64,000 bases of DNA from a virus. Made by a program: the position numbers and the translations under genes. The stretch is from IMG/VR virus record IMGVR_UViG_3300044701_003572, positions 22,379 through 86,378 of that record, one strand, 5' to 3'. The notes under the pieces were generated by a model. That model was given only the letters and a program-made list of their open reading frames with translations. It made no database searches and had not been told where the DNA came from. How positions within the stretch are numbered: position 1 is the stretch's first letter; each line of letters begins with the position of its first letter. Shown piece after piece: positions 37,817 to 59,646 of the stretch.

Positions 37817-38800
37817 ATGACACACGACTTTCAAAAAATACCTTTTCAAAATATAATTAAATTTGGACAGAGAACTATGTTAGAAAGACCTTTGTTCTCT
37901 GTAAGTTGGATATTAGGACGATTTTGTAATTATAGTTGTTCATATTGCTGGCCGTATGCAAGATCGGATAGAATTGATCACCAATCACTAGACATCTATA
38001 AAAATACAGTAGACGAAATTAAAAGACAAGCAAGACAGAATGGATTTACAGAGTTTCATTGGAGCTTCAGTGGTGGCGAACCAACGGCCTATAAACAACT
38101 ATTAGATCTAGCAAGACATTTAGAAAATGATTTAGAAAGTCCGTATCAGAGCATACATATGACTACCAATTTAAGTCCGGGAAGCAAATGGTGGAAAAAT
38201 TGGTCGAATACTACTGCTAATTTGCAGAGAAGAAGTATTACAGCAAGCTATCATTCTGAGTTCGCTAAAGAACAGGAATTTGGTGATAAATGCCTTCAGC
38301 TTATGTACGACAACGTATATGTTACAATCAATCAAGTAATGGTGCCGGATCAATTTTTTCAATTATACGAACGCTGTGAAAGACTGCATAAAAGAGGAAT
38401 CAATGTAACTCTGAAGCCTCAGAGTGATCCTACGGCCAGCGGCGTTGTAGATGGATATACCAAGGAAATGATTAACCTGATGCAGACAGGTTTTCCTCAG
38501 CAGGCCAACGCCGAAGAATTATATCAAATTGTACTTTATGATACTAATGATAAAGAGTATTTGTTTGATCAGGCAGAAAGATTTAACGCTTATGATTTTA
38601 ATAAGTTTCAAGGATGGCATTGTAATTCTGGATACCAAAGTGTTATAATTCGCAGCGATGAAGTAAAAAGATCCTATAGTTGTCATGATCAACTGTTAGG
38701 AACTTTAACAGAAGGATTTAATTTGTTTAATAAACCTCGACGCTGCATTACACCTAGTTGTGTAAGTTCAGCTGATAGTAAAGTACCAAAATGCAAATAG
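37817..38800 (+). CDS. Radical-SAM protein with SPASM-like C-terminus (1)
   Basis: A 327-aa protein. The [4Fe-4S]/SAM motif is CNYSCSYC (Cys 37, 41, 44), followed by SFSGGEPTAY, the GGE motif that holds the SAM amino group. The C-terminal 70 residues hold six cysteines (GWHCNSGYQS, SYSCHD, RRCITPSCV, PKC), as expected for auxiliary cluster binding in SPASM/twitch proteins. It is the first gene of the island and has the same Gx(R/H)CNxG block as the genes at 43737 and 44575. The substrate is unknown. A TAAATA element lies 10 bases before the ATG. Confidence 0.9.
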   Translation: MTHDFQKIPFQNIIKFGQRTMLERPLFSVSWILGRFCNYSCSYCWPYARSDRIDHQSLDIYKNTVDEIKRQARQNGFTEFHWSFSGGEPTAYKQLLDLARHLENDLESPYQSIHMTTNLSPGSKWWKNWSNTTANLQRRSITASYHSEFAKEQEFGDKCLQLMYDNVYVTINQVMVPDQFFQLYERCERLHKRGINVTLKPQSDPTASGVVDGYTKEMINLMQTGFPQQANAEELYQIVLYDTNDKEYLFDQAERFNAYDFNKFQGWHCNSGYQSVIIRSDEVKRSYSCHDQLLGTLTEGFNLFNKPRRCITPSCVSSADSKVPKCK

Positions 38801-39399
38801 ATACAGAACATTTACATTACTGGATGCAGGCTATCCGGCAAAGCCCGAATCCTATGCGAACCATGGATGCATTCTGGAGAGGACAACTTAAAAGCAAAGA
38901 ATGGTTAATCGAAAATTTACGTAAGCACGTAAACAAATTTGTAACAGTAGATATTCACGGAGGATGGGTTGGAGTATTAGCTAGTATGTTGTTCCAGAGC
39001 GAAATTCCTATCATTAATATTCGTAGTATTGATATTGATCCAACGTGCGAACCTATCGCTGTTAATATGAATAAGATTGAAGAAATGGTAGGGAAGTTTC
39101 GAGCAGTCACTGCCGATATGTGTGTTATTAGCAGTAATGCAGATGTTATCATTAATACCAGCTGTGAACATATTACACAGTACGATTATGATACGTGGCT
39201 AAATGGTATTCCATCTAGCTCATTGCTTGTTTTACAAAGTAATAATTATCAAATTCCGGAGCACGTTCGAACAGCAAAAACATTAGATGAATTTAAAGAA
39301 CAATCTAATATTAACATATTGTGGTCCGGAGAACTAGAATTGCCCTTATACAACCGATATATGATCATTGGAAGAAAGAATGTTACCTTATCCACATAA
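38791..39399 (+). CDS. SAM-dependent methyltransferase-like protein
   Basis: A 202-aa Rossmann protein. The glycine-rich SAM-binding motif I is FVTVDIHGGWVGVLASML (about residues 51-68), the acidic end of strand 2 is SIDIDP, and motif IV is DVIINTSCEHI. The pattern matches class I methyltransferases, with an unusual GGWVG in place of GxGxG. The acceptor is unknown. It overlaps the radical-SAM genes on both sides by 10 and 20 bases, so the three are probably made together. Confidence 0.72.
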   Translation: MQIDTEHLHYWMQAIRQSPNPMRTMDAFWRGQLKSKEWLIENLRKHVNKFVTVDIHGGWVGVLASMLFQSEIPIINIRSIDIDPTCEPIAVNMNKIEEMVGKFRAVTADMCVISSNADVIINTSCEHITQYDYDTWLNGIPSSSLLVLQSNNYQIPEHVRTAKTLDEFKEQSNINILWSGELELPLYNRYMIIGRKNVTLST

Positions 39400-40480
39400 T
39401 ATAAAATCAGTTCATATCGAATTAACTGACAAATGTCAAGCAGCCTGTCCTATGTGTTCGAGAAACGAGTTCGGCGGCAAAGAACGCAGTCATATTAAAA
39501 ATACTGAAATTACTTTAGAACAGTTTGTTCAATGGTTCCCTAGAGAATTCTTAATGAAACTTGATAGTTTTTATGCTTGTGGAAATAACGGAGACCCTTT
39601 ACTGGCTAAAGATTGTTTAGAAATATTCGAATATCTGGCTAATAACACTACTGATGATTGTAGACTTGCCATTCACACTAACGGAAGTTTGAGAAATAAA
39701 GAGTGGTGGACGAATCTTGCTAGAGTTCTGGGTAATAAAGGTTTGGTAGTTTTTGCTATCGATGGATTTAAAGGTCAGCATGAAATGTATAGGCGAAACA
39801 CTAGTTGGGATAAAATTATTGAGAATGCTAAGACATTTATAGCTGCTGGCGGCAAAGCAAGATCAGATACTTTGTTATTCAAACACAACGAAGATGAGGC
39901 AGAAAATCTAAAAGAATATCTACTTAGCATCGGGTTTGAAGAAGTTATTCTAAAACCAACACAAAGGTTTCACGGATTACCTCAGTTCCCAGTAAAAGAT
40001 CAATATGGTAACGTGGAATACTATATCGAAGGACCTACGAAACCGCAGTATAAAGAATACATTATGCAACCAAACATGGTTAAGTTAGTAGAAAAAGAAA
40101 CTTATAATGCTCTAATTAAAAATTCTGAAATTGATCCGAAGTGTCAAACTGGTCGAGACTTATTTGTTAATACTTTTGGTAATGTGTGGCCCTGCTGTTT
40201 TGTACAGGCATTAAATGTCACTGACGGACTTGACTGGCAAGGTGCCGAATATGTTATTAGGGAAAGATTAAGACTATCCGCTGTAGATGTAGCAGATGAT
40301 ATTGGTATTCCAAATTTGCACGGAACTAATATCGTTGATATTTTGAATTCTTGCGGTTGGGGCGAAAGTCTTCCTAAACATTATACCACTGATAAAAAAT
40401 TAGTTTGTGTTAAAAGTTGTTCTACAAACTTACGAAAGTTGGTTGAAGATAATAACAAACCTCAAATACAATACTGGTAA
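39380..40480 (+). CDS. Radical-SAM protein with SPASM-like C-terminus (2)
   Basis: A 366-aa protein from the ATG at 39380, preceded by GGAAGAAAGA. The cluster motif is CQAACPMC (Cys 19, 23, 26). Where most family members have GGEP it has CGNNGDPLLAKD. Then HTNGSLRNKEWW and DGFKGQHEMYRRN follow. The C-terminal half has CQTGRDLFVN, a WPCCFVQA pair and further cysteines near the end for auxiliary clusters. It is clearly related to the gene at 49685. The closest described architecture is a SPASM peptide maturase, but no peptide substrate gene is seen nearby. Confidence 0.88.
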   Translation: MLPYPHNIKSVHIELTDKCQAACPMCSRNEFGGKERSHIKNTEITLEQFVQWFPREFLMKLDSFYACGNNGDPLLAKDCLEIFEYLANNTTDDCRLAIHTNGSLRNKEWWTNLARVLGNKGLVVFAIDGFKGQHEMYRRNTSWDKIIENAKTFIAAGGKARSDTLLFKHNEDEAENLKEYLLSIGFEEVILKPTQRFHGLPQFPVKDQYGNVEYYIEGPTKPQYKEYIMQPNMVKLVEKETYNALIKNSEIDPKCQTGRDLFVNTFGNVWPCCFVQALNVTDGLDWQGAEYVIRERLRLSAVDVADDIGIPNLHGTNIVDILNSCGWGESLPKHYTTDKKLVCVKSCSTNLRKLVEDNNKPQIQYW

Positions 40481-41142
40481 TCTAAAATAACACCTGCTCG
40501 GGTAATTGATTCAAAAGCACCTGTAAATGTATCTGGAGTCAGCGTGTTTAAATAAACTTCCTTTTCGCTGATTGCTTTGAAACCTGTAATTGTATTATTT
40601 TTTACACCTGCATTGATCAATGTCATAATCGGTGTGTACGCCAATTGCTTCCAATCATAGTCGCCTTCGATAATTTTAATTTTAAGAAAAGGATCTTGTT
40701 CGTTGTATCTCGGTAAAAGAACACGCACATTAAGATGTATTCTAGTTCGAGGTCCCCAATTTGCCGCAACGTGTATTTTGCCTGTGTTCATATACCATAG
40801 TTGTCCGTCGGCAGGCAGATGGTATAATTTGTTGTCAGTTATATCAACTAAAAAACTGTAAGGATTGGTAATAATAGCAAGATGTATTCGATCATCTGGA
40901 TCAGCGTGTGCAGTATATGACTCCGCAGATTCTAGTTTAAGAAGTCTAGCCTGCCCAATATTTCCTAAAGACTTTAATACCTCACCTAACGGAGTTGATT
41001 CAAACTCCGGCAAAATTATCCAAGGATCATGAAAGAAAGATCCAGAAGGTTTATTCAAGTCTAGACGTTTTTCAAATACCAAATCATCAACTTGTTGTAT
41101 AATGGGTTCTATAGAAAATTTTTGGTCGAGTTTAGTAAGCAT
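40462..41142 (-). CDS. Aspartyl/asparaginyl beta-hydroxylase-like oxygenase
   Basis: A 226-aa protein. The core AHADPDDRIHLAIITNPYSFLV, then YHLPADGQLWYMNTG, then HVAANWGPRTRIHLNV follows the AspH family pattern: metal-binding His residues on the double-stranded beta-helix, and an Arg in RIHLNV that grips 2-oxoglutarate. AspH enzymes hydroxylate Asp or Asn side chains of proteins. The target here is unknown. It faces the radical-SAM gene at 39380, overlapping its end by 19 bases, and is divergent from the QueC-like gene with 10 bases between the start codons. Confidence 0.75.
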   Translation of the reverse strand: MLTKLDQKFSIEPIIQQVDDLVFEKRLDLNKPSGSFFHDPWIILPEFESTPLGEVLKSLGNIGQARLLKLESAESYTAHADPDDRIHLAIITNPYSFLVDITDNKLYHLPADGQLWYMNTGKIHVAANWGPRTRIHLNVRVLLPRYNEQDPFLKIKIIEGDYDWKQLAYTPIMTLINAGVKNNTITGFKAISEKEVYLNTLTPDTFTGAFESITRAGVILDYQYCI

Positions 41143-41152
41143 AATTATACTT

Positions 41153-41875
41153 ATGAAAGTAGATATACCGTTTGATAATAATTGGAAAAGTGTTGCTATT
41201 GCGGTAAGTGGCGGCGCTGATAGCGCATTACTGACATTTCTAGTTTGTCAAACAGTAACAGAAAGAAATATTAATCCTTTTACTGTACACGTTATTAATA
41301 ACATTAGATGCTGGAAGACTAAGCCCTGGCAACAAAGCGATTTTAAAAAAGTTTATAATTGGTTAGTTCAACGATTTCCAAAAATTAATTTTCAAATACA
41401 CACAAATTTCGTACCTCCTGAACTAGAATGGGCCAATAAAGGTCCTAGCATTATCGATGAATACGGTAAGTTAGTCAGTGGAGACACACTAGAATTAAGA
41501 TCCTTTGCAGAATTTGTATGCATCAATCAGGATGTTGATGCATATTTCAATGGCGTTACACGAAATCCAAAAGGCGTTGATTTTCAGGGAATGCATACTA
41601 GAGATATAGAACCTACCGAAGAAAATCGTCATCTTAAACTAATGATACATATGGGAAAACTGGTATCGCATCCTTTTAGATTTTTAGATAAAAGTTGGAT
41701 AATTAAAAAGTATTATGAATTAGAGCTAGAGGATCTACTTAATACCACTAGAAGCTGCGAAGGAACTGTTCCAGGTTTAGATTATACTAATTATAAACCT
41801 TATCAATATGTTCCGGTGTGTGGAGAATGTTTCTGGTGTAAGGAACGAGAGTGGGGAATTAAATGTCAAGATTAA
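41153..41875 (+). CDS. QueC-like PP-loop adenine nucleotide hydrolase
   Basis: A 240-aa protein from the ATG at 41153. The PP-loop AVSGGADSALL (about residues 17-27) binds the pyrophosphate of ATP. The C-terminus carries cysteines in RSCEG and CGECFWCKERE, matching the four-cysteine zinc site of QueC. QueC turns 7-carboxy-7-deazaguanine into the nitrile preQ0, activating a carboxylate with ATP. The middle part differs from canonical QueC, so the substrate may be another carboxylate or carbonyl. It overlaps the SGNH gene by 13 bases and lies among radical-SAM genes rather than near queD. Confidence 0.75.
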   Translation: MKVDIPFDNNWKSVAIAVSGGADSALLTFLVCQTVTERNINPFTVHVINNIRCWKTKPWQQSDFKKVYNWLVQRFPKINFQIHTNFVPPELEWANKGPSIIDEYGKLVSGDTLELRSFAEFVCINQDVDAYFNGVTRNPKGVDFQGMHTRDIEPTEENRHLKLMIHMGKLVSHPFRFLDKSWIIKKYYELELEDLLNTTRSCEGTVPGLDYTNYKPYQYVPVCGECFWCKEREWGIKCQD

Positions 41876-42495
41876 TTACATTTGGGTGTTCATATACATT
41901 TGGACATGGTTTACCCGACTGTCTAGATCAAGAAGTTGATGGTTGTAGAATACCTCCAGAAACTGCTAGTAATCTAGGTTGGCCAGTTATTCTAGCAAAC
42001 AAAATGAATAGAACACTGATAAACGTGTCTAGGCCAGGATCTAGTAATTTAGAAATACTATATTCTATATTAAGTTTTGATTTTCAATCAACCGATCAAA
42101 TTGTTGTTATGTGGTCACATAACATTCGAGATATTATCTTTACTGAGGATGATATGAACCCATTATTACGTTTACGACTAGGACCTTGGAGTAACGAACG
42201 ATATGCACAGCAATGGGTATTAAAGGTAACTGAAAGAGATTATTGTTTAAAGACCTGGATATATATTCAACATTCTGATTTATTTTTTGAAAAGAAAAAT
42301 ATTAAATGGCTTCATTATCCGGCAGCGCCTCACGAATTATTAGAATTTAAATTTAATTTTATCAATTCTGATCATATTTGTTTCGACGGATTTAAAATAG
42401 TCGATGATGCTGAAGATAATAAACATCCAGGTTTGAAAACCCAACAATTAATAGCCGACAAGATTTACAACCAATTGTATGAACAATCAAAGTAA
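41863..42495 (+). CDS. SGNH/GDSL-like hydrolase
   Basis: A 210-aa protein. Block I is ITFGCSYTFGHGL with the nucleophile Ser in GCS (about residue 10). RPGSSNLEI supplies the block with Asn. KHPGLKTQQ near the C-terminus supplies the catalytic His of the DxxH region. SGNH enzymes are esterases or acyl hydrolases acting on lipids or O-acetylated sugars. The substrate cannot be read. It overlaps the genes on both sides. A second, diverged family member lies at 52307-53035. Confidence 0.72.
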   Translation: MSRLITFGCSYTFGHGLPDCLDQEVDGCRIPPETASNLGWPVILANKMNRTLINVSRPGSSNLEILYSILSFDFQSTDQIVVMWSHNIRDIIFTEDDMNPLLRLRLGPWSNERYAQQWVLKVTERDYCLKTWIYIQHSDLFFEKKNIKWLHYPAAPHELLEFKFNFINSDHICFDGFKIVDDAEDNKHPGLKTQQLIADKIYNQLYEQSK

Positions 42496-43744
42496 AACAT
42501 TTTGTATACATCCTTTCACAGGATTGGCAACACGAGAAGACGGTGCAGTCAAGGTCTGCTGCCGTAGTCAGCCTGTGGGTTGGATACAAGAACAGAGCAT
42601 AGAAGATATTTGGAACAGCGAAACTATATGTGAAGTTCGCAGGCAAGTGCTCTGCGGTGAGCGTCCTGAAGTCTGCAAACCCTGTTTTGATCTAGAAGAT
42701 CAAGGTGTAGAAAGTCTGCGCCAACGACACATCAATGGCGTCATACCTGAATCAAGAATTAATTTATATCCCAACGCACTAGATAGCCTACGTGAAGATT
42801 ACACAATGCCGTTTGAATTTCCTACAATGGAAATTAAACTTAATAATCTCTGTAATTTAAAATGCAGAATGTGCAATCCGTTAGATAGTACTAGCTGGAA
42901 AGACTGGGATTATGTCAAACCTTTTTATGAAAAAGAAAATAACTACCTTGTTCCCACAGTGGCCAAGTTGGTGCGTACTCCCGGACAGTACATTGGTCCT
43001 TTTGATGACACTGAAAACTGGTGGGTTAGTTTCGAAAAACTTTTGCCATATTTTCGTAGAGTAGAGTTTGCGGGAGGAGAACCTTTGATGGATCCGCAGC
43101 ACTATAAGATCTTAGATATGTTAAAGCCTTACGCTAAAAACATAGAAATCAAGTATGCTACTAACGGCACTACGTTAGGTATAAGTCGAGATAGAACTAT
43201 TCACGACTACTGGCCATATTTTAAATCTGTAGCAGTGAATGTTAGTCTTGATGGTATACATAGTGTATATGATTATATTCGTACCAATAGCAACTTTGCA
43301 GAAGTCGAAAAGAACATCAAAGAAATACAGACAATACCAAATGTCAGTAGAGTAGTAGGGGCATTTACTGCACAGGCTGGAAATATTTTACAGGCAGCAG
43401 AGTGTATCGATTATTTTATCAATGAAATGAACATAGTATTCTACAGCCATCGTGTAAGTTATCCTAATGTACTATCGGCCCAAGTACTACCGCAGGAATT
43501 AAAAGACTTAGCCATCAGCAGATTGCAGACAGTATCTAACAGAATTTGTACATTCCCTAACATAGAAAAATATCCTATTCTAGAAAAAATTACCCAACAA
43601 CAAATTAAAGATAATATCAACTATCTGCGAGCCAGGGATCAAAGTCATTTATGGCAAGATTTTTTAGAATTTAATCGTAAATTAGATACTACAAGAAATC
43701 AAAATTTATTAGAGGCTGTACCGGAGTTTACTGCATATGTATAA
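42479..43744 (+). CDS. Twitch-type radical-SAM protein (3)
   Basis: A 421-aa protein with the auxiliary-cluster part first: TFCIHPFTGLATREDG (Cys 9), VKVCCRS (27, 28), then CGERPEVCKPC (59, 66, 69). The radical-SAM core follows with CNLKCRMC (125, 129, 132), EFAGGEPLMDP and YATNGT. This N-terminal twitch then core arrangement is shared with the genes at 45594, 57129 and 58339. Such proteins usually modify peptides or proteins. It overlaps the next radical-SAM gene by eight bases, forming a two-enzyme module. Confidence 0.9.
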   Translation: MNNQSKTFCIHPFTGLATREDGAVKVCCRSQPVGWIQEQSIEDIWNSETICEVRRQVLCGERPEVCKPCFDLEDQGVESLRQRHINGVIPESRINLYPNALDSLREDYTMPFEFPTMEIKLNNLCNLKCRMCNPLDSTSWKDWDYVKPFYEKENNYLVPTVAKLVRTPGQYIGPFDDTENWWVSFEKLLPYFRRVEFAGGEPLMDPQHYKILDMLKPYAKNIEIKYATNGTTLGISRDRTIHDYWPYFKSVAVNVSLDGIHSVYDYIRTNSNFAEVEKNIKEIQTIPNVSRVVGAFTAQAGNILQAAECIDYFINEMNIVFYSHRVSYPNVLSAQVLPQELKDLAISRLQTVSNRICTFPNIEKYPILEKITQQQIKDNINYLRARDQSHLWQDFLEFNRKLDTTRNQNLLEAVPEFTAYV

Positions 43745-48454: not shown

Positions 48455-49004
48455 TTAGATCTATACCTAGATTCTCTTTGATCTTTGACCTAGTATAATC
48501 AGTTAGTTTAAGTTCAAAGTCCATTTGATTAATTCTAGGATTTTCGATCCACCAATCGACTGCGGAAACAATATCACTATAAAGTATAGGATGGTCGCAA
48601 CTGACAGCATTTTCTAACATAGATATTTTCATATACAAGATGTTAGATGTAGACTTTGAACTTAATTTCTTACATCTCTGTTCTAGTTGATGTTTGATTT
48701 CGCCGTAGGGTCTACAATTAGGATACATCTGTTCATAGTAATCTCCAGCGATAGATCCCATAACGATTATCTTAGGCACTGTGCCTTCTAGTCTGTTTAG
48801 CAGATCAATTTGATGAGTTTTAACAAATGAGTTGTTAATAAACAGATCGCAATCTTTTGATAGTTCAACAATTTCTTCTAATTTATCGTTGATGTCGAAT
48901 CCATTAGATCTAGAGAATCCCTGCACTTCCCAACCTTTGGCTGTGAAATGATCATAAAGAATTTTACCTATTCCAAAAGTATGACCGGTGATAGTACATT
49001 TCAT
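48447..49004 (-). CDS. Short-chain dehydrogenase-like protein
   Basis: A 185-aa Rossmann protein. The nucleotide-binding loop is TITGHTFGIGKILYDHF (about residues 4-20), the NNAG-equivalent is INNSF, a Ser is in VMGSIAGD (84), and the catalytic pair is YGEIK (Tyr 100, Lys 104). It is shorter than classical members (about 250 aa), so the substrate lobe is reduced. It would oxidise or reduce an alcohol/carbonyl with NAD(P). It sits between the oxygenase-like gene and the radical-SAM genes in one leftward run. Confidence 0.8.
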   Translation of the reverse strand: MKCTITGHTFGIGKILYDHFTAKGWEVQGFSRSNGFDINDKLEEIVELSKDCDLFINNSFVKTHQIDLLNRLEGTVPKIIVMGSIAGDYYEQMYPNCRPYGEIKHQLEQRCKKLSSKSTSNILYMKISMLENAVSCDHPILYSDIVSAVDWWIENPRINQMDFELKLTDYTRSKIKENLGIDLNE

Positions 49005-49644: not shown

Positions 49645-49651
49645 AGTCACA

Positions 49652-49657
49652 TATTTA
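49652..49657 (-). promoter_or_regulatory. Late-promoter-like AATAAATA element
   Basis: The minus strand reads GGCAATAAATATGTGACTATG; seven bases separate the element from the ATG at 49644. Confidence 0.45.
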
Positions 49658-49677
49658 TTGCCCAAAAAAACTAACAG

Positions 49678-50755: not shown

Positions 50756-52352
50756 TGTTATTCTTTTTACAGACACCCCTGGCACAGATTGGTTAAGCAG
50801 AGGTTACGGTTGTTATCGTTTAGCCACAGAGATCAGAGAAGCAGGATTTACTGTACTTACAGTTGAATACGGATCTAGCCTTACGTGGGATCGATATAAG
50901 GAAGTAATTGATCAGGCAGTTGGGGATGACACCTTAGTTGTTGGTTATTCCACAACCTGGTTCCCTTACAGGAATCTTAATAAGATTAATCCTAGATATT
51001 CTGTAGGTTTCAAAAGCAACAAGGAACATACAGATTTTAAACACGACAAACATTCTTGGTATTATGAAAGCCTTAGTCATTGTTTTAGTCAAGAGGATCC
51101 GGACAAATGGGTTGATTATGTTAAACAAAAAAATCCTAAAATTAAATGTATAGTAGGTGGTGCTAAATCTAACGAATATGTTTTTGAACCTAATGTAGAT
51201 AATATATTCATTGGATTCAGCGAGAATATGATTCTAGATTATGTTAAAAGTCTCAGCGGCCAAGGACCAAAAAGAATTTTTAATAAAATAGTTAATTATG
51301 ATCCCAAGGCATCGGATCCACGATTTGATTTTAAAAGTTCTTTTACAAGATATGTCGATACAGATTGTCTAGTCCAAGGAGAATTATTAACATTAGAATT
51401 TGCTAGAGGTTGTATCTTCAATTGTAATTTTTGTTCTTATCCTCATCGAAATCAACAGACCAGAGATTATATCAAATATAAAGAAAATATTCGAGCAGAG
51501 TTAATGGAAAATTGGGAGAAGTGGGGATGTACTAGATACATGATCACCGACGATACATTCAACGATGCCACAGAAAAATTAATACACATTAAAGAAGTAA
51601 TCGAAACTTTGCCTTTTAAACCTAAGTTTTGGGCGTATTGTCGAATGGATTTATTTCATAAATTTCCAGAACAGATACAGCTGATGAAAGATATTGGTGT
51701 TACTGAAATCTATTACGGTTTAGAAACCTGGCACGACAAGACTGCTAAAGTAATTAACAAAGGTGGTAAAATAGAAAACAAAATTTCTGCTATGAAAAAG
51801 GCTAGGGAAATCTGGGGATCTGACGTATACGTTACAGTAGGCTTAGTTATGGGATTACCTCACGACACAGTCGATAGTGTACAACAGGCCTGTGAGTGGT
51901 TTAAAGCTGAAGGACACAAATATATCGATTGGTTTAACGTATCATCATTAACAGTGTATCCCCCTACCGATAATTTAAAATATAAATTCTTTTCAGACAT
52001 AGAAAAAAATTTAGACAAGTACGGATACACATTCCCGGACGTAGAAAATAATCCTATAGAATGGAACAGACACGACGATGGCGATATCTGCAGTAAAAGT
52101 CAGGCTGATCAGTTAATGGACTTTTGGATGAAAGAAATAGGTCCCTACCAAGCTCCTAGAAAACAAATGTGGTTTTCTAATGCTCTTACAACAATAGATC
52201 CTAGATTAGATTACGAGTATCTTTTACATACGACTAGAGATGAATGGAATGATATTTTTAGAGGATTTAATCCTACAGAATATTATTGGAAATACGTAAA
52301 TTTTTACTATTGGCCGAAACTTTTAAGTATGTTACGGAAAAACAATTCGTGA
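50748..52352 (+). CDS. B12-binding-type radical-SAM protein (9)
   Basis: A 534-aa protein. The N-terminal 165 residues look like a B12-binding-type Rossmann domain (YGCYRLATEIREAGFTVLTV, CIVGGAKSNEYV) without an obvious DxHxxG. The cluster motif is CIFNCNFC (Cys 222, 226, 229) after LEFARG, then ITDDTFNDA and YYGLETWH. It is a longer relative of the gene at 46976. Relatives include enzymes that methylate unactivated carbons or rearrange skeletons. The 3' end overlaps the convergent SGNH gene by 46 bases. Confidence 0.88.
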   Translation: MYNVILFTDTPGTDWLSRGYGCYRLATEIREAGFTVLTVEYGSSLTWDRYKEVIDQAVGDDTLVVGYSTTWFPYRNLNKINPRYSVGFKSNKEHTDFKHDKHSWYYESLSHCFSQEDPDKWVDYVKQKNPKIKCIVGGAKSNEYVFEPNVDNIFIGFSENMILDYVKSLSGQGPKRIFNKIVNYDPKASDPRFDFKSSFTRYVDTDCLVQGELLTLEFARGCIFNCNFCSYPHRNQQTRDYIKYKENIRAELMENWEKWGCTRYMITDDTFNDATEKLIHIKEVIETLPFKPKFWAYCRMDLFHKFPEQIQLMKDIGVTEIYYGLETWHDKTAKVINKGGKIENKISAMKKAREIWGSDVYVTVGLVMGLPHDTVDSVQQACEWFKAEGHKYIDWFNVSSLTVYPPTDNLKYKFFSDIEKNLDKYGYTFPDVENNPIEWNRHDDGDICSKSQADQLMDFWMKEIGPYQAPRKQMWFSNALTTIDPRLDYEYLLHTTRDEWNDIFRGFNPTEYYWKYVNFYYWPKLLSMLRKNNS

Positions 52353-53035
52353 GTTTTCGTACCTGGATGCTTTAAATCTCTGCCGTAATCAATTTGATTA
52401 GTGTTGTCAACTTCAATGACTCTGATGTTTTGATATTCTAACATCGAAACTATAGTGTCTCTGATAATTTTACTATAATGATCAAAGTAATCAGTGTCGA
52501 TAACTGAATTAAAATTTCTCCAATCCTGCTCAGATATTCTATCACCGATATCGGATTTACAAGACCAGGGACCTATAGGAACAATTTTATCTTGATATGC
52601 TCTAAAGGTTCTGACTATCTGTGGCCATTTTATGATCACTGCCTGTGGTTTAAGTTTTATGTGTTTAAACCAGGAACTTAGATTGAATGACACGAGGTCA
52701 TAACCCGCTCCTTCTACAGCAAGATTGTAATAATCAATTCCTAGTTGCTGTGAAACCAAATAAGGAAAAGTTTCTTTTAATGAAACAGCAGAACCTACTG
52801 TGATACTACAGCCTAAAAATAAAATAAAATCTTTGTCTAGATTTTCTATTTCTTTAGATCTATGACCGTAAGAATTTCTATCATATAAAACTCGTTTTGT
52901 TCTATAGATCCAATCTTGAGATTGAGATTTCAAATTACCAACAAATACCTGTTCGGTGTCCTGACCGTAAAGGCCAAATTCTGATACTCCGGATTCGCAG
53001 TATCCTACCAATTTTTCATTATACAGTTTTAGCAA
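52307..53035 (-). CDS. SGNH/GDSL-like hydrolase with TTG start
   Basis: A 242-aa protein. Block I is ILFLGCSITVGSAV with the nucleophile Ser at about residue 76, VEGAGYDLVSFNL follows, and LKHPGTKTHELF gives the His region, as in the gene at 41863. The frame begins at a TTG at 53035 (TAATAAATTGC on the minus strand), with no ATG near the expected start, so initiation is unusual. About 65 N-terminal residues precede the hydrolase fold and are not recognised. Substrate unknown. Confidence 0.7.
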   Translation of the reverse strand: MLKLYNEKLVGYCESGVSEFGLYGQDTEQVFVGNLKSQSQDWIYRTKRVLYDRNSYGHRSKEIENLDKDFILFLGCSITVGSAVSLKETFPYLVSQQLGIDYYNLAVEGAGYDLVSFNLSSWFKHIKLKPQAVIIKWPQIVRTFRAYQDKIVPIGPWSCKSDIGDRISEQDWRNFNSVIDTDYFDHYSKIIRDTIVSMLEYQNIRVIEVDNTNQIDYGRDLKHPGTKTHELFFRNILKSFGQ

Positions 53036-53047
53036 TTTATTACCAAA

Positions 53048-53053: not shown

Positions 53054-53077
53054 GTGTTATATTTAATATACAATAAA

Positions 53078-54250
53078 ATGTCAGAAATTTTTTTTCAAAT
53101 TAACCAATTTAATCAACTGGACTTCGACTCGGTATTTAAACACGTAGAATCTCTAGGCGGCCATCTTTTAGAGCCAACAGTTAGTCTGTGCCATCAGTGC
53201 CATTATCATATACCGGGATATACCTACTATGTTAACGACCAATTATGGATGATTAAAAAATGTAAAATTCACGGTATCACAACACATATGCTCGAACGTG
53301 ATTACACTTTTTATAAAAATTTAATTTACACCGATGCTTCTTTTACATTTACTAAAAAAAGCATCTTAACAGAAGTAACGGATAGATGCAATGCTGATTG
53401 CCCTCATTGCTATCATATTCCTGATAATAAAACATTAGATATTTCGATAGATGAAATAATATCTAGAATCGAAAAATGGAATCAGGGAGATGTTGATATT
53501 AACTTTGCAGGAGCAGAACCAACAATAAGAAAAGATTTTCCTGAATTGGTTAGGCGTGTAAAAGAAAGATGGCCTAATAATGCTCTTGGAGCATTAACTA
53601 ACGGTATTAGACTAGCAGACAAGGATTGGTTATTGGAAATTAAGGAAGCAGGAATTACTGCTTTAACTATAGGATTGAATCATCCTAGCTATCTTAATAA
53701 TGAAACACTAAGAAAGAAACAATTACAAGCGATTGATAACTGTTATGAGTTAGGAATGATGACATATTCGATTGGTTATACTATGGCAAGTCTAGAAGAG
53801 TTACATTTTATATTAGATGAAATTTGTAGCAATCCTTGGACACCAGTACATTTTAGAATACGATACGGAAGCGACATAGGTCGTTATCCTAATCAAGAAA
53901 GAATGTACGTAAGTGACACATATAAAGCTATTAAAATTTGGTGCGAAAAAAATGGTGTACCGTTCGAAGATATACCCGGGGATAATAATCTATATCATAC
54001 GATGGTCAATGTTAATGGAAAGTCAGTCCGAGTAATACAATGGTGCGATGAAACAGATATTCATATGGAAGAATTGTTAACTGGACCTTATTGCGACTTT
54101 GTTTCAGACGGTGTGACTAATTTCTTGCATCAAATAATCCGCAGAGACATAGAAAAAAATCAAGGAATTCGATTGCCGGATAGACCTCCTGCTAGATATC
54201 TTATGGAAAATAGATTTAACGTAGAATCTTTGGAGTTTAAAAATTTATGA
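53078..54250 (+). CDS. Radical-SAM protein with N-terminal zinc motif, Tes/MJ0619-like (10)
   Basis: A 390-aa protein from the ATG at 53078. Before the core is a CxxC...CxxH knot (SLCHQCHYHIPG, then KKCKIHG; Cys 38, 41, 62, His 65), as in tetraether-lipid synthase (Tes) and pterin methylase-like (MJ0619) radical-SAM proteins. The cluster motif is CNADCPHC (104, 108, 111). The GGE motif is changed to FAGAEPTIRKDF. A C-terminal auxiliary cysteine set is weak (QWCDETD, GPYCDF). It may join or methylate lipid or pterin-like substrates, but this is only family-level inference. Confidence 0.82.
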   Translation: MSEIFFQINQFNQLDFDSVFKHVESLGGHLLEPTVSLCHQCHYHIPGYTYYVNDQLWMIKKCKIHGITTHMLERDYTFYKNLIYTDASFTFTKKSILTEVTDRCNADCPHCYHIPDNKTLDISIDEIISRIEKWNQGDVDINFAGAEPTIRKDFPELVRRVKERWPNNALGALTNGIRLADKDWLLEIKEAGITALTIGLNHPSYLNNETLRKKQLQAIDNCYELGMMTYSIGYTMASLEELHFILDEICSNPWTPVHFRIRYGSDIGRYPNQERMYVSDTYKAIKIWCEKNGVPFEDIPGDNNLYHTMVNVNGKSVRVIQWCDETDIHMEELLTGPYCDFVSDGVTNFLHQIIRRDIEKNQGIRLPDRPPARYLMENRFNVESLEFKNL

Positions 54251-54822
54251 GAATGATAGAATTTGATCACGACGATTTTGTAAAATTTTCTAAAGATGTT
54301 TTTAAAACTCTAGATTTTCCTATTGATTACTATAAAGGAACTGCGGTTTGGAATATGGCCTCTGTTAGGCCTGATTTGATAAATCAAGCTAAGAATTTTT
54401 TTCCTTGGTTATCAGGAAATGTTGCAGCATTTTTTTTACAACCAAATTCTCATTGTCCTATTCACGTTGACGATCATGACAATGTATCTTATTTCAACGC
54501 ACTCAATGTATTAATTGAAGACAATAACGGAAATCATAAAACATATTATTATGATGTTCCGGGAGGTTGGAACATACACGATCAGGGTACAATATACGGA
54601 TGGGGTGACGAGTATGTTGAAGGCGATCAAAAAATTCAAAGAGTATTTTCGCACACTGTAACAAAACCAACATTGTTTAATCATCAACAATTACATAGTA
54701 TTGAAAATTTTGATGGTAAGATACGAATAGTATTATGTTGGCAAATACATAAAGATTATAGTATAGAACATTTGAATTTATGGTTAGAAACAAATAATTT
54801 TAATCCTAAGGTACTTTATTGA
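54247..54822 (+). CDS. Cupin / 2OG oxygenase-like protein
   Basis: A 191-aa protein. LQPNSHCPIHVDDHDNVSYF gives an H-x-D pair, and NHQQLHSIENFDGKIRIVLCW gives the distal His and Arg of the double-stranded beta-helix of Fe(II)/2OG enzymes. Divergence is high and activity unproved. It overlaps the radical-SAM gene upstream by four bases and the next oxygenase gene by one (TGATG). Confidence 0.65.
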   Translation: MRMIEFDHDDFVKFSKDVFKTLDFPIDYYKGTAVWNMASVRPDLINQAKNFFPWLSGNVAAFFLQPNSHCPIHVDDHDNVSYFNALNVLIEDNNGNHKTYYYDVPGGWNIHDQGTIYGWGDEYVEGDQKIQRVFSHTVTKPTLFNHQQLHSIENFDGKIRIVLCWQIHKDYSIEHLNLWLETNNFNPKVLY

Positions 54823-55397
54823 TGTTGTTAAATTATAAACAGTATCGTCACTATAATTTGATAGATAATATTCTGTTAGTAGTTCAAGAAGAATTAAAAG
54901 AATATTTAAAATATAAAAAACAAAGTGATATGGCTTCTCTTGATTGGTTCGAAAATCAATATGGACATCAGTTACCTATGAGAGATATATTAAAGTTATG
55001 GTGGACTGTTCCTAGTATAAGAGCAGGTAATTATACTGAATGGTCTTTATTGATGCCCAATATGTCTAAGGCAGCTTACGATTTACCAGGGATAGTTAAT
55101 TTTAGTTTAAACTGTATATCTCCGGGGGGTATGATTCCAGTACATTCTGATTATACTTATGACATGAGAGAAGATTTATCAAACATTAAAAAAGCCTTTG
55201 CGATAATTGTTGCGGTTGATATACCTGCCGGGTCTCTAGACGAATGTGGCTTTGAACTCAACGGTAATAAAATTTATCTTAAGACCGGTGATATTATTGC
55301 ATTTGATGGAAAATTTCCTCACGGTTCTTGGAATTATACTTCTCAATGGAGGTACACATTGAATATGGATATAGAGGAGTCGTACTGGAATGTTTGA
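54822..55397 (+). CDS. Aspartyl/asparaginyl beta-hydroxylase-like oxygenase
   Basis: A 191-aa protein. ISPGGMIPVHSDYTYDM contains the first His and Asp of the AspH type. Then KTGDIIAFDGKFPHGSWNYT and QWRYTLNMDI contain the second His and the 2-oxoglutarate-binding Arg. It is one of three consecutive oxygenase-like genes made as one unit (one- and eight-base overlaps). The target amino acid or small molecule is unknown. Confidence 0.75.
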   Translation: MLLNYKQYRHYNLIDNILLVVQEELKEYLKYKKQSDMASLDWFENQYGHQLPMRDILKLWWTVPSIRAGNYTEWSLLMPNMSKAAYDLPGIVNFSLNCISPGGMIPVHSDYTYDMREDLSNIKKAFAIIVAVDIPAGSLDECGFELNGNKIYLKTGDIIAFDGKFPHGSWNYTSQWRYTLNMDIEESYWNV

Positions 55398-55974
55398 ATA
55401 TTTAAATTATGTACAAATCCCGATCGATTTAAGAGATCATATTTTAGATTTAGCATTTAAAAATTCTTCTTATCAGGCGGAGAGGTTTGAAAAATTTTAT
55501 ATCGATAATAGAATAGAAGAAGCCATAGACGAAAGTTATCCTACTGTAAAATTAGGATTAGGTATATCTCCTAAAGAAGCTGAGAAAGTTTCCGGTATGT
55601 GTACAATGACTATGTTTCAATCAGATAAAGTTACAGATTGGGTTAGAAATAATATCAATGATTCTTTTATGGCTGTACACATTCAAAACTTCGATCGGGG
55701 GAGTTTATTCTTTCCTCACGTAGATCTAATTAGAACAAAAGCTTTAAATTATCTTATTGAAAGCGGCGATGCTGATACAATATTTTTCGAACCTCTCGAA
55801 GAGTTTAAAAATTTAGTTCCGCAACCTAGTACATATATACCTCATAATAGAATACGAGAAATTAAAAAAATTAAAATAGAAACAAATAGATGGCACCAAC
55901 TAGATGTTACTAAAATTCATAATGTAGAAAATATTAAATCTAGAAGATTAGCAATCACTGTTAGTTTCGCTTAG
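55390..55974 (+). CDS. Cupin / 2OG oxygenase-like protein
   Basis: A 194-aa protein. FDRGSLFFPHVDLIRTKALNY supplies H-x-D, and QLDVTKIHNVENI followed by RRLAITVSF supplies the distal His and Arg. It is distantly related to its two upstream neighbours. The 3' end overlaps the convergent aminotransferase gene by 27 bases. Confidence 0.65.
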   Translation: MFEYLNYVQIPIDLRDHILDLAFKNSSYQAERFEKFYIDNRIEEAIDESYPTVKLGLGISPKEAEKVSGMCTMTMFQSDKVTDWVRNNINDSFMAVHIQNFDRGSLFFPHVDLIRTKALNYLIESGDADTIFFEPLEEFKNLVPQPSTYIPHNRIREIKKIKIETNRWHQLDVTKIHNVENIKSRRLAITVSFA

Positions 55975-57132
55975 TACTGAAACGAGTTTATTTTTTAAAG
56001 AATCAAAATAGTCAAATTCGGCGGTGATAGGAATCATCACTAAAACTCCATCTCGACTGCTATTCCAAATCCCCATATGCATTCCATGTTTGTAAAAAAT
56101 AGATTCTTTTTCTAAATAGTTTGATATTTCTGTTTTTAAGATTAGATTAAAACATACTCCGAAGTTTCTATAGTCTTTGATTAATTTTTGATTTTTTAAA
56201 TCATCAAATAATGATCTTGCAGTTGAAATAATTGTATCGTGCATCGATAAAATATTTTCTTTTTCGATTATGTCTAGATATTTTAAAACACTAATGATCC
56301 CGGCCATAGGAAAACTATAACTGAATCCGTGCATCAACATTTGTGGTTTAACGACATCTGCAACACGCTGGTTACAAAGAGTTGCACTTAAGGGAAAATA
56401 ACCTCCTGTTATTCCTTTTCCTATACAAAATATATCCGGTTGAACACCGTACATTTCGAACCCGAATAAGGTCCCTGTTTTTCCTCCGCAAAATGCTATG
56501 TCATCGATGACTAATAATACGTTATTTTTATTGCAAATATCTCTCAGATTTTGAAAATATTCTTGACCTAAATCAATTAGGCCGCCTTGCCAGGAACAAG
56601 TTTCTATTATTACTGCTGCGGTATCGGAATCGATTTGATCTAGTTGATCATATGAAATAATTTGACAATCATTATGACGCCCAAAAATATTTGTAATATA
56701 TTCACTTCCGCTCACACTAGAACTCATATATGTCGAACCGTGATAAGAGTGTTGAAAACCTATAATTTTTTTCTTTTTTCCTTGATGAAACATATGAACT
56801 AGTTTAATTGCACCCTCTATAGCATCACTGCCTGATAAAGAATACATTGGATAATAACCGTTAGATAAATTATAAAGTTTTTGAGAAAGCAAAGTAGTCA
56901 AATAATTAGCTGTAACGAAGTCTCCTTGACAGAAAGGGTATTTCTTTAATTCGTCTGTAACCGAGTCAATTAAGTCTGTTCTTTTAAATCCGAGTAAGAA
57001 ACAACCACTACTACCTAATCCAAGATCTAAAATATCTCTCTCGTCGTCTTTAAAACCGTATTTGGTTATTTCTGTTGATTTTTTAACAGTCGGCAACGGA
57101 TCGTTTATGCTAAATGGAAATAATTGTTTCAT
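55948..57132 (-). CDS. Class III PLP-dependent aminotransferase
   Basis: A 394-aa enzyme with the class III motifs: SGSDAIEGAIKL (phosphate-binding region, about 100-111), FQHSYHGST (127-134), VIDDIAFCGGKTGTLFGFE (Asp 210 for the pyridine ring) and CIGKGITGG (Lys 239 for the Schiff base). Relatives move the amino group of an amine or omega-amino acid, or act as aminomutases. The usual DExxxGxGRTG is replaced by DDIAFCGGKTG. It is the last gene of a leftward run with two twitch radical-SAM proteins, overlapping the upstream one by four bases. A plausible use is to install an amine in a biosynthetic product. Confidence 0.88.
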   Translation of the reverse strand: MKQLFPFSINDPLPTVKKSTEITKYGFKDDERDILDLGLGSSGCFLLGFKRTDLIDSVTDELKKYPFCQGDFVTANYLTTLLSQKLYNLSNGYYPMYSLSGSDAIEGAIKLVHMFHQGKKKKIIGFQHSYHGSTYMSSSVSGSEYITNIFGRHNDCQIISYDQLDQIDSDTAAVIIETCSWQGGLIDLGQEYFQNLRDICNKNNVLLVIDDIAFCGGKTGTLFGFEMYGVQPDIFCIGKGITGGYFPLSATLCNQRVADVVKPQMLMHGFSYSFPMAGIISVLKYLDIIEKENILSMHDTIISTARSLFDDLKNQKLIKDYRNFGVCFNLILKTEISNYLEKESIFYKHGMHMGIWNSSRDGVLVMIPITAEFDYFDSLKNKLVSVLSETNSDC

Positions 57133-58346
57133 TCGTACCTCTTAATAAAAGGATATAGTTTTTGGTAGTTAGTTTTTCTAGTGATATCGTATAGATCCAG
57201 AACTCTGGTTCTTTCTGTCACTACTTCGTTAAAATCATTTATTTGACTTTGTAAAATTTCGATAGAATCTAGGATACCTTTCTTAAATCCTTTGCTATCA
57301 CTTAATATTTTTAAATCTTTATTTGAACATTTTTTGAGAAGACATATAGCTTTTTCTTTTTGTTCGGGTTCTAGATATTCAAAAGAAAAATAGTCTGGTT
57401 GAAATACGATTCTAAGTACAACATCTAACCATTCTATATTATATTTTTCTGCTGTCTTTTCGAAAGTGTCTAGAATTTCTTCTATATCAAATATATTGAA
57501 TATACTTATGGTAAAAGATATTCCAAGATTTCGATTGCCTGCTGAAATTAGTTTGTCTAAATTTTTTAAGAAATTGGAATAAGTAGCAGGATATCTTATG
57601 AGCCTAAATTTTTCATCCTCTATATGATCCCAACTAATCCATAGTTCTTTTTTTGGAAATTGAGTTAGCTTAGATAACATATCGTCAGTTAAACTAGTGA
57701 GATTTACTGTAGTTGATAAGTGTATATCTGTATATTTGTGTCTAATACAATAATCCAAGAGATTGTGTGTTACGGGACTAATTAATGGTTCACCACCCTG
57801 TAGTTCTAGTTTAATCTTATTCTTTAATAAACTTTCGATATTTTCTAAGATATAATCGCCTGCATAGAAATTACCTTGATTAATTTCTTCAATGACTTCG
57901 AGCCATTTAGGCATTTTTATATTTTCAGTTCTAAACAATTTTACTTCTTTCTCATGCTGAGAACTCTGATAATGATTACAAGTAATACATTTTAAATTAC
58001 AAGTATTATCTGATTTTAATCCTAACATCGAAGGTAAAGACTTTGTTTTTATGTTAATGTCTGTGTTTAGATTCTTAAACACTTTATTGAACTCTTGACG
58101 TTGACTGGTTGTTCCTCGAAGCTCTCTATTCCAACATACTTGACAATTTTTGTTTCTAACACCATTGAGTAAATCTTGTCTTAAGTTAACAAAATAATCA
58201 TCGTTCCACGCTTGTTCTATAGTGTGAGTATTAATGTTACTATTTTTTGTATCGCCGGTCTGACTGTGACCGCAGGCTACATAATCTCCGTTACGCTCTA
58301 AATAGACATTAATAAAAGGCATAATACAAAATGTTTCTTTATTCAT
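57129..58346 (-). CDS. Twitch-type radical-SAM protein (11)
   Basis: A 405-aa protein. N-terminal auxiliary cysteines: TFCIMPFINVYLERNGD (Cys 7), ACGHSQ (25), CQVCWN (68, 71). Core: CNLKCITC (116, 120, 123), ELQGGEPLISPVTHN. It keeps a single Cys at position 25 where its relatives have a CC pair. It is a tandem paralogue of the gene upstream with an eight-base overlap, and both end in a TNYQKLYPF / TDYRTMFPY type tail. Confidence 0.9.
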   Translation of the reverse strand: MNKETFCIMPFINVYLERNGDYVACGHSQTGDTKNSNINTHTIEQAWNDDYFVNLRQDLLNGVRNKNCQVCWNRELRGTTSQRQEFNKVFKNLNTDINIKTKSLPSMLGLKSDNTCNLKCITCNHYQSSQHEKEVKLFRTENIKMPKWLEVIEEINQGNFYAGDYILENIESLLKNKIKLELQGGEPLISPVTHNLLDYCIRHKYTDIHLSTTVNLTSLTDDMLSKLTQFPKKELWISWDHIEDEKFRLIRYPATYSNFLKNLDKLISAGNRNLGISFTISIFNIFDIEEILDTFEKTAEKYNIEWLDVVLRIVFQPDYFSFEYLEPEQKEKAICLLKKCSNKDLKILSDSKGFKKGILDSIEILQSQINDFNEVVTERTRVLDLYDITRKTNYQKLYPFIKRYE

Positions 58347-59646
58347 AATCTTTTAAGTAAGGAAACATTGTTCTGTAATCTGTATTTCGAATTTGATCGT
58401 AAATTCTCAAAACTCGAGTTCTTTCTCTGCACACATCAGTGTGGTCAAGATTTTCATCTCCCATATAACCCGGCACGCTAATCACACTTTCTACAAATTC
58501 TGGATTATCACGGAATATTTTATAATCATAATTGCGTGTCATAAAGTTGTTGATTCGGTCAGTTATTTCTTGTTTTTGATCTAATTCTAGGTAGCGTAGA
58601 CTAAAATAATTTGGATAATAAATTAATCCAAAGTTTATAACAAAACGATTAGTAGTTCTATGTGCAATAGTTTCCCATTCGGTAAAGATATCTTCGAAAT
58701 CGAAGATATTAAAAATACCCCAGGTAGTACTAAGTTTTTTCTCTATATGTTCATATTCCCAAAGTTTTTCAAAATTTCTTTTAAACACCGAATAGTCTGC
58801 GGGATATCTTATAAAATTAAATTTTGCAGGATCAATATGGTCGTAGCTAATACATAGCATCGGATATTTGAATTGATTTAGCAATCCTATGGTTTTAGGA
58901 TTGATCACAGATAGGTTTGTGATGATCTGTAACATCATATTTTTTGCATAACCTTTTTCCACACATTGCTCTAATAATCTTTGTGTGGTTTTGTTGACCA
59001 ACGGCTCCCCGCCTACTAGACTCATGTGTATGGCCTGTTGCAAACTAGGGTCTAAATTTTCTACTATTGGTTCGATATCTAAATCTCTAGGATTAAAATC
59101 TTCAACCTTAAAATTAAATTCTTTTACTCTATTGTCGAACATCTTTAGAAGGCCAGGAAGCTCTATACCTTTAGATGTCATTTCTTCTTGTTCGTCTTGA
59201 TGTAGACTACTACTGCCCGGATAGCACATAATACACTTTAAGTTGCACTGTGTTCCTACTTTCACATCAAGGTCAGTTGGCGGTGTTGATAATGCACCTC
59301 CATTGGCCAGAGCATCGTTAACAAATTTATCATAATCTGGATACATAAAGTGTTTCTCGTCATTGGTCTTTTGACGCTTACTATATGCACCCCCTGCTTC
59401 ATAATTCCAGCAGTATTCGCAGGTGGGATTTTTAATTCCATTTAATAGATCTAATCTAAGCTTTTTATACTGATCGCTGTTCCATACCTCTATTACATTA
59501 TCCTTTCTCATATTATAAGGAGTACCGTCGGGTTTGGCCACAACTATTTCTTCGCTGCAACAACAAGCTCGATAATTGCCGTCATTAGTAGAGCTTATGT
59601 GCGTAAACGGCAAAAGACAAAATGTAGGATGATTCTTATAATCCAT
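58339..59646 (-). CDS. Twitch-type radical-SAM protein (12)
   Basis: A 435-aa protein. N-terminal auxiliary cysteines: TFCLLPFTHISSTNDGN (Cys 10), ACCCSEE (28-30), CEYCWN (76, 79). Core: CNLKCIMC (134, 138, 141), SLVGGEPLVNKTT. A tandem paralogue of the next gene. The start overlaps the kinase-like gene upstream by 11 bases, so the leftward unit runs kinase-like, twitch, twitch, aminotransferase. Confidence 0.91.
   Translation of the reverse strand: MDYKNHPTFCLLPFTHISSTNDGNYRACCCSEEIVVAKPDGTPYNMRKDNVIEVWNSDQYKKLRLDLLNGIKNPTCEYCWNYEAGGAYSKRQKTNDEKHFMYPDYDKFVNDALANGGALSTPPTDLDVKVGTQCNLKCIMCYPGSSSLHQDEQEEMTSKGIELPGLLKMFDNRVKEFNFKVEDFNPRDLDIEPIVENLDPSLQQAIHMSLVGGEPLVNKTTQRLLEQCVEKGYAKNMMLQIITNLSVINPKTIGLLNQFKYPMLCISYDHIDPAKFNFIRYPADYSVFKRNFEKLWEYEHIEKKLSTTWGIFNIFDFEDIFTEWETIAHRTTNRFVINFGLIYYPNYFSLRYLELDQKQEITDRINNFMTRNYDYKIFRDNPEFVESVISVPGYMGDENLDHTDVCRERTRVLRIYDQIRNTDYRTMFPYLKDYE

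Follow-up and report, generated by a model that had tools for sequence, protein, structure and literature searches.

Why should a single phage carry a dozen radical S-adenosylmethionine (rSAM) enzymes side by side, and do these genes serve one purpose or are they only gathered in one place? The question is raised by positions 37817 to 59646 of a DNA stretch of 64,000 nucleotides (the window), which corresponds to bases 22379-86378 of the 86,378-base IMG/VR virus record IMGVR_UViG_3300044701_003572. The record covers part of the genome of a T4-like phage; relatives of its DNA polymerase occur in 2,580 phage records, the closest being Sinorhizobium phage Phosso with 51% identity, and its other T4-like genes are named by reading. 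A first-pass annotation had taken the twelve genes for a pathway carried by the phage. This is the right reading, because linked genes of this set turn up again in other contigs, but it holds for a part of the island: six of the rSAM genes and three other genes form a core, which is shown by its co-occurrence to be inherited and recombined as a unit, while the other six rSAM genes are variable additions.

The radical SAM genes and their recurring core

Over the whole record, the Radical_SAM model PF04055 gives twelve matches, which are all above the curated cut-off, free of internal stops and located within the reported span, and each of the twelve translated proteins has one CxxxCxxC motif with the letters noted in the first pass, which bears out the claim of twelve intact genes. 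An all-against-all BLASTP comparison (E <=1e-3) returns the same five groups as the architectures distinguished before; named by the first positions of their genes, they are {37817, 43737, 44575}, {39368, 49658}, {42479, 45594, 57129, 58339}, {46976, 50748} and {53054}, and a single weak match between groups joins 37817 and 53054 (67 residues, E 1e-4). The four proteins described as N-terminal twitch enzymes all exceed the 170-bit cut-off of the NCBIfam model NF033640 (N_Twi_rSAM; scores in the lists below), so 4 of the 12 belong to this family by score, though the name of the model gives no function. Two finer labels stood only in part. Of the two proteins called B12-binding, 46976 has such a domain with a score below the cut-off (25.7 vs 32.1 bits), and none is seen in 50748; 53054, called Tes-like, has an HMPTM zinc ribbon and scores higher with TrsS (79.9 bits) than with Tes (68.5 bits), both far under the cut-offs. 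The G+C content of the island is 34.7%, versus 39.5% in the 37.8 kb before it, and most of its adjacent genes overlap by 4-62 bases.

The core consists of the rSAM proteins A, B, Tw1, C, D and Tw2, a methyltransferase-like protein (MT), a PP-loop ATPase (PP) and a 2-oxoglutarate (2OG)-type oxygenase (AspH), encoded in the window at 37817-46979:

37817..38800, + strand: rSAM A, 327 amino acids (aa), GWxCNxG C-terminal SPASM-like; PF04055 45.4 bits
38791..39399, + strand: MT, probable class I methyltransferase, named by reading; no Pfam match
39368..40480, + strand: rSAM B1, 370 aa, altered GGE; PF04055 40.6 bits
40462..41142, - strand: AspH, 2OG-Fe(II) oxygenase-like; invariant HxD...H in the alignment
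41102..41875, + strand: PP, PP-loop ATPase; PF01171 20.3 bits, below cut-off; invariant SGGADS and four invariant Cys in the alignment
42479..43744, + strand: rSAM Tw1, N_Twi_rSAM; NF033640 320.8 bits
43737..44636, + strand: rSAM C, 299 aa, GWxCNxG; PF04055 52.1 bits
44575..45597, - strand: rSAM D, 340 aa, GWxCNxG, a less constant core member; PF04055 44 bits
45594..46979, - strand: rSAM Tw2, N_Twi_rSAM; NF033640 396.2 bits

Relatives were collected from IMG/VR contigs with three baits: Tw1, for which the best 80 of 86 were kept, and Tw2 and the non-rSAM protein PP, for which the best 80 each were taken. Each locus is the bait with at most 10 kb on either side, so that where a gene is absent its count is a lower bound. 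The per-gene counts use loci of at least 19 kb, namely 38 for Tw1, 33 for Tw2 and 47 for PP (42, 47 and 33 of the 80 were shorter and were excluded); the three sets share contigs, and the count for family B merges 39368 and 49658. With PP as bait, Tw1, Tw2, B, C and AspH are each found in 47 of 47 long loci, together with PP itself in 44 (by the filter), MT in 33, A in 27 and D in 26, and each locus holds 6-9 of the nine core genes. The Tw1 loci contain C and Tw2 in all 38, AspH in 37, B in 30, PP in 26, MT and D in 25 each and A in 22; for the 33 Tw2 loci the numbers are B 33, Tw1 31, C 31, PP 30, A 29, AspH 29, MT 27 and D 20. Tw1, Tw2, B, C, PP and AspH are the six genes that come together most constantly. 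The overlaps between genes and the small amount of free coding space also speak for a unit. A core rSAM gene is present in 79 of the 80 PP-bait loci of any length, the exception being a fragment of 11.7 kb. Gene order and accessory content vary from locus to locus.

The accumulation is no accident of one record, since all of 50 related whole contigs (from the 80 Tw1 loci, mostly longer contigs) carry 5-13 PF04055 matches each at E <=0.001, the cut-off status being that seen among the matches listed. Two outcomes named beforehand as fatal to the pathway were not observed. Core genes recur linked in other contigs rather than independently, and a chimeric contig was rejected, because the island is flanked by Thy1-family genes and the phage genes next to them in at least 13 of the 80 Tw2-bait loci, by a manual count on the maps.

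As for single core proteins, PP is a PP-loop ATPase with a structural model whose predicted local distance difference test score (pLDDT) is 88.6 and whose nearest structures are the [4Fe-4S] thiolase NcsA, PAPS reductase and TilS; the assignment stops short of a reaction type. Several known functions were tried and rejected. C scores 36.6-37.1 bits with the QueE models, the cut-offs of which are 206-260 bits; PP has no QueC match in the Pfam or PDB lists and no NCBIfam match as an N-acetyl-sugar amidotransferase at 1e-6; and with prokaryotic viperin (NF038283, cut-off 180 bits) A, C and D reach 37.4, 43.9 and 44.9 bits.

Occurrence in phages and bacteria

The tightly linked core block is shared by a large group of aquatic phages, most of them uncultured. 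After collapse at 95% identity, 122 lineages were sampled for Tw1, 136 for Tw2, 128 for C and 109 for PP, and IMG/VR contigs of 265-364 kb occur among the Tw2 and PP matches. A scan of viral contigs with Tw2 found at least 595 stretches encoding relatives (E <=1e-3), the best 80 of which are 57-83% identical. Among 50,697 phage records, the matches to Tw1, Tw2, AspH, A, B and C are only 21.7-33% identical (E <=1e-5); for PP, D and MT there is no match.

In bacteria, NF033640 is exceeded in 2 of 398 Pseudomonadota genomes and, in narrower samples, in 1 of 78, 2 of 297 and 1 of 298, which makes three distinct genomes overall (G138, G173 and G489); it is exceeded in none of 12 bacterial genomes picked by similarity to the IscU protein of the phage. 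A pattern search of bacterial genome contigs with the Tw1 alignment gave 83 pattern stretches and no relative, within the limits of the patterns, and PP had no relative in 398 bacterial genomes at 1e-12, in a search that had no positive control. Each of the 5 island-bearing virus records tested has at least two NF033640 matches above the cut-off. Within this sampling, N_Twi_rSAM therefore appears to be mostly viral, given 2 of 398 Pseudomonadota against 5 of 5 island records and the many viral relatives. It is possible, and we put it no more strongly, that the core is a phage-exclusive pathway, a cassette without counterpart in the cultured phages and bacterial genomes sampled, which performs a chemically new modification, most likely of a surface glycan or its precursor, in about a hundred or more lineages including contigs of more than 300 kb.

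The first-pass annotation gave one or a few rSAM genes as the usual number for a phage, which overlooks published phages with 11-12 (the papers cited here and below by PMC number are represented by excerpts). Campylobacter phages CP220 and CPt10 have 11 and 12 rSAM proteins, with an exchangeable cluster of 10-12 genes including five rSAM genes and a putative glycine amidinotransferase (Timms 2010, PMC2853527). We found 11 PF04055 matches in CPt10, 10 of them above the cut-off, and no N_Twi_rSAM match at 1e-10. In Campylobacter phages, A, B and C have relatives with only 21.7-27.8% identity, and no match to Tw1, Tw2, AspH, D, PP or MT was found; with weak or no core matches in phage records, the island is, by these comparisons, not a gene set of the CP220/CPt10 type. 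A likeness lies in the amidinotransferase, which by reading is also present in the variable part of related islands (L083:17332-18408 and 12 other loci; no Pfam match). The 183-kb T4-like marine virus TARA_ERS488813_N000010 has 12 rSAM genes and an A-type Fe-S carrier, and its rSAM genes were interpreted as Fe-S linked auxiliary genes (Nishimura 2017, PMC5332604); it is likened here by description only, and the excerpts describe no operon, core set or substrate. Pelagimyophages have a hypervariable island, tied to host recognition, which gains rSAM cassettes, whereas their freshwater group PMP-D has no rSAM genes, and no conserved rSAM core is described in the excerpts (PMC7029224). The cultured Vibrio phage K566 (OZ196521) resembles the island in having five NF033640 matches in its genome, two of them above the cut-off, but the relatives in it are only 23-27% identical, and A, B, C, D, PP, MT and AspH have no match in it. 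A dozen rSAM genes per phage was thus already known from CP220/CPt10 and TARA_ERS488813_N000010, as far as these excerpts go, and the conserved core is new; neither this core, nor its near-exclusivity to phages, nor the Wzt link described below was found in searches of open-licence PMC papers.

The substrate of the core

For the function of the core, we tentatively favour a phage-borne cassette that remodels a surface glycan of the infected cell, or a lipid- or nucleotide-linked precursor of it. A glycan is favoured because distant relatives of Tw1 and Tw2 are fused to Wzt in a bacterium and interleaved with glycosyltransferase genes in Vibrio phage K566. All three NF033640-positive bacterial contexts, the loci being assigned by homology, lie near glycosyltransferases. 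In L266, a single chain of 854 aa contains ABC_tran, Wzt_C, SPASM and Radical_SAM (L266:8579-11143), and the locus has five NF033640 matches in four proteins as well as RmlC, RmlD, an ABC-2 permease, WbsX and TylF. In L270, N_Twi_rSAM is fused to an FkbM methyltransferase and found near two GT2 and one GT1/GT4 glycosyltransferases, with a weak HPr-kinase match, and in L267 it lies one gene away from a GT2. A further genome, G365, was dropped from the contexts, as its match is below the cut-off (87 bits) and lies, by reading, among housekeeping genes. In K566, four N_Twi_rSAM-type genes, two of them above the NF033640 cut-off, are interleaved with two GT8 genes and one gene with a weak GT4 likeness; LpxC and a gene annotated as PagP are found about 4 kb from this cluster. 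In a Tasman Sea phage virome, the excerpted report likewise has rSAM, RmlD, glycosyltransferases and methyltransferases prominent together (PMC7150976). Finally, this phage has its own KdsA and a glycosyltransferase 8-10 kb upstream of the island, and homologues of both are present in two other island contigs (loci L236 and L240). As an observation of its own, the chain at L266:8579-11143, a Wzt-type ABC ATPase fused to an N-twitch rSAM enzyme, is an unusual O-antigen exporter subunit.

The genes outside the island that bear on this reading are as follows:

4443..4766, - strand: 7Fe-type ferredoxin, possible electron donor; PDB ferredoxin I 1.3e-43
24835..25155, - strand: IscA, Fe-S carrier; PDB YfhF E 6e-36, SufA and IscA also matched
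25127..25531, - strand: IscU, Fe-S scaffold; PDB IscU/NifU-like 1.4e-68
25662..26225, - strand: Fe superoxide dismutase (Fe-SOD), adjoining IscU; PDB Fe-SOD 3.4e-26
27773..28561, - strand: glycosyltransferase beside kdsA; phrog_1962 glycosyltransferase 82.9 bits, no Pfam match
28536..29366, - strand: KdsA, Kdo-8-phosphate synthase (lipopolysaccharide inner-core precursor); PDB KdsA 9e-106

We infer the substrate, reactions and benefit along the following lines. The rSAM enzymes would abstract hydrogen from sugar carbons that are not activated, so as to dehydrogenate, epimerise, C-methylate or deoxygenate the sugar. The PP-loop protein would adenylate a group and so activate it, and the oxygenase and methyltransferase would complete the modification. 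A receptor altered in this way during infection could lead to superinfection exclusion or to progeny release from debris. To keep the Fe-S enzymes active in aerobic water, the phage would rely on its own IscU, IscA, ferredoxin and superoxide dismutase, whose sequence matches make such a supply for O2-sensitive enzymes plausible. The adjacent Fe-SOD, IscU and IscA genes (window 24835-26225) form a module for Fe-S assembly and oxygen defence. The IscU protein is 80-87% identical to its best 80 bacterial matches, which are mostly Betaproteobacteria with some Gammaproteobacteria, a similarity that gives a weak hint at the host.

A number of observations speak against this picture. The glycan contexts apply to the relatives of Tw1 and Tw2 at the family level only, and L270 has PqqD nearby as well. 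No glycosyltransferase above the Pfam cut-off is found inside the island of the window (28 proteins), and neither Pfam nor PHROG has a match for the commonest glycosyltransferase-like family of the related loci, which was hit in 52 of them. IscU is seen in only 10 of 51 records, which may be fragments. The nearest bacterial relative found of the A/C/D group (E 6e-24; best match D, 30% identical) is encoded in an apparent operon with an 88-aa Gly-rich open reading frame (ORF), GG-leader-like by reading, and a bacteriocin-type ABC exporter, and this operon points to a peptide substrate for the C/D group. Against PDB, the top matches of the exporter are multidrug ABCB proteins over the ABC half, and the best full-length ones are bacteriocin transporters, HlyB and ComA. 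C-type matches occur in five bacterial genomes (G388, G401, G175, G382 and G422), and the contexts were examined for the first three: G388 has the exporter operon, G401 no clear context, and G175 an rSAM-rich region with glycosyltransferase-like genes by reading only. The best PDB matches of the AspH profile include 'Beta-hydroxylase' (7v4f, E 7.5e-19) and L-proline cis-4-hydroxylase. The Tw1 model (pLDDT 76, N-terminus poor) is closest to SkfB, CteB and BlsE (template modelling score about 0.35), with SuiB also among the fold matches; the resemblance to SkfB and CteB, which mature ribosomally synthesised and post-translationally modified peptides (RiPPs), is weak and not decisive. In L277:8305-13595, the 88-aa peptide, the rSAM gene, an HlyD-like gene and the bacteriocin-type exporter, with a GT2-like gene upstream, make up a candidate new RiPP cluster (peptide, HlyD and GT2 by reading).

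SPASM/twitch rSAM enzymes often use peptides as substrates, and this usual activity, together with the exporter operon and its candidate precursor, the hydroxylase matches of AspH, the fold matches of Tw1 with SkfB, CteB and SuiB and the PqqD near one bacterial N_Twi_rSAM, argues for the main rival: that the core modifies residues of phage or host proteins, for example of virion or tail, in a RiPP-like way without a small precursor. We regard it as rather unlikely. The Wzt fusion and the glycosyltransferase contexts of N_Twi_rSAM stand against it, and the island does not have the usual equipment. Among ORFs of at least 20 aa that overlap large genes by less than 40%, no small ORF family recurs in more than 18 of 160 loci, and in the examples and maps listed the most frequent families are located elsewhere than in the core block; bases outside ORFs of at least 120 aa make up 4.6% of these loci. 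In addition, no RiPP recognition element (RRE) or PqqD domain and no peptide exporter is found by Pfam in the 28 island proteins, Pfam being the only search made for the RRE fold. A RiPP reading is not supported by these results, and a RiPP cluster with a small precursor was rejected for want of a recurring small ORF family.

The remaining explanations look weaker still. That the core turns amino acids or nucleotides into a diffusible metabolite or a modified nucleotide, to serve as antimetabolite, cofactor or signal, is improbable; the class III aminotransferase and tryptophan halogenase are typical of amino-acid chemistry, amidinotransferase-like and SAM-decarboxylase-like families (both by reading) occur in the relatives, and A, C and D score weakly with the viperin model, but these scores are far under the cut-off, and no nonribosomal peptide synthetase, polyketide synthase or nucleotide synthase is recognised among the core genes by Pfam. 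Hypermodification of phage DNA or tRNA bases, which we hold for quite improbable, could draw on the relatedness of the PP fold to tRNA-modifying PP-loop enzymes, on Thy1 adjoining the island and on a PTPS/QueD-like gene (PF01242) with FolE-like and TGT-like genes, the latter two by reading; against it are the QueE scores of C, the missing QueC match of PP and the glycan context of N_Twi_rSAM. As a separate observation, these PTPS/QueD-, FolE- and TGT-like genes (window 29563-30135; L009 336-1172; L009 4681-6237) may possibly belong to a 7-deazaguanine base-modification pathway, in which no QueE or QueC is recognised. That there is no joint pathway, the island being a hypervariable region which collects unrelated auxiliary genes, is very improbable. 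The variation of order and accessory content and the rSAM cassettes gained by pelagimyophage hypervariable regions (PMC7029224, from excerpts) are in its favour, and it holds for the accessory genes only; for the core it is contradicted by the five core genes that were found in 47 of 47 long loci with the sixth, non-rSAM bait PP.

Accessory genes and the meaning of the island

By their distribution, the other six rSAM genes (46976, 49658, 50748, 53054, 57129 and 58339), the other oxygenases, the aminotransferase, the halogenase and others are accessory. They form a variable ring of tailoring genes (rSAM, 2OG oxygenases, aminotransferase, halogenase, short-chain dehydrogenase/reductase (SDR), acetyltransferase) that differs between phages, several of the names being given by reading. 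Family counts refer to the 80 Tw1 loci, for which the identity thresholds of clustering differ from those of the Tw2- and PP-bait counts; that 57129 and 58339 have no other family member holds at these thresholds.

41863..42495, + strand: SGNH-hydrolase-like (by reading); 15/80
46976..48454, - strand: rSAM B12a, 492 aa, weak B12-binding domain; PF04055 44.3 bits, PF02310 25.7 bits (below cut-off); 15/80
48447..49004, - strand: SDR-like (by reading); no Pfam match; 20/80
49018..49665, - strand: Asp/Asn beta-hydroxylase-family 2OG oxygenase; PF05118 36.3 bits
49658..50755, + strand: rSAM B2, 365 aa, second family B copy; PF04055 40.7 bits; 32% identical to B1
50748..52352, + strand: rSAM B12b, 534 aa, no B12 domain by Pfam; PF04055 71.3 bits; 27% identical to B12a
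52307..53035, - strand: SGNH-like (by reading); DUF6473 23.8 bits, below cut-off
53054..54250, + strand: rSAM, HMPTM zinc ribbon, TrsS/Tes-like; PF04055 64.1 bits, PF23545 33.5 bits; 15/80
54247..54822, + strand: 2OG-oxygenase-like (by reading); no Pfam match
54819..55397, + strand: Asp/Asn beta-hydroxylase-family 2OG oxygenase; PF05118 37.9 bits
55390..55974, + strand: 2OG-oxygenase-like (by reading); no Pfam match
55948..57132, - strand: class III aminotransferase; PF00202 167.4 bits; 12/80
57129..58346, - strand: rSAM Tw3, N_Twi_rSAM; NF033640 247.5 bits; other family members 0/80
58339..59646, - strand: rSAM Tw4, N_Twi_rSAM; NF033640 281.7 bits; other family members 0/80
60262..60804, + strand: 2OG-oxygenase-like (by reading), frequent; no Pfam match; 53/80
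60801..62375, + strand: flavin-dependent tryptophan halogenase family, rare; PF04820 297 bits; 6/80
62361..63164, - strand: conserved protein F62361, frequent; no Pfam or PHROG match; 37/80
63187..63873, + strand: conserved protein 'Kin', kinase-like by reading only, frequent; no Pfam or PHROG match; 34/80

The halogenase has relatives in 73 phage records, for the most part cyanophages. A kinase assignment for 63187 was rejected, as the protein lacks a Pfam or PHROG match and has few invariant residues in the alignment. Beside these, a small phage protein reading like translation initiation factor IF-1 occurs at L258:1803-2054 and in 17 other island loci, and a candidate UV-damage endonuclease (UvdE), by reading, is encoded at window 26528-27586.

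Phage auxiliary genes generally mirror host metabolism. In the present case, a multi-step radical pathway appears to reside in phages and, within the sampling, hardly elsewhere, and this phage combines it with Fe-S assembly, an electron carrier and protection against superoxide. What was described as a dozen rSAM genes is narrowed to a nine-gene unit, and the Wzt fusion is, to our knowledge, the first functional clue for the N-twitch rSAM family. Vibrio phage K566 provides a cultured phage in which part of the glycan idea is testable.

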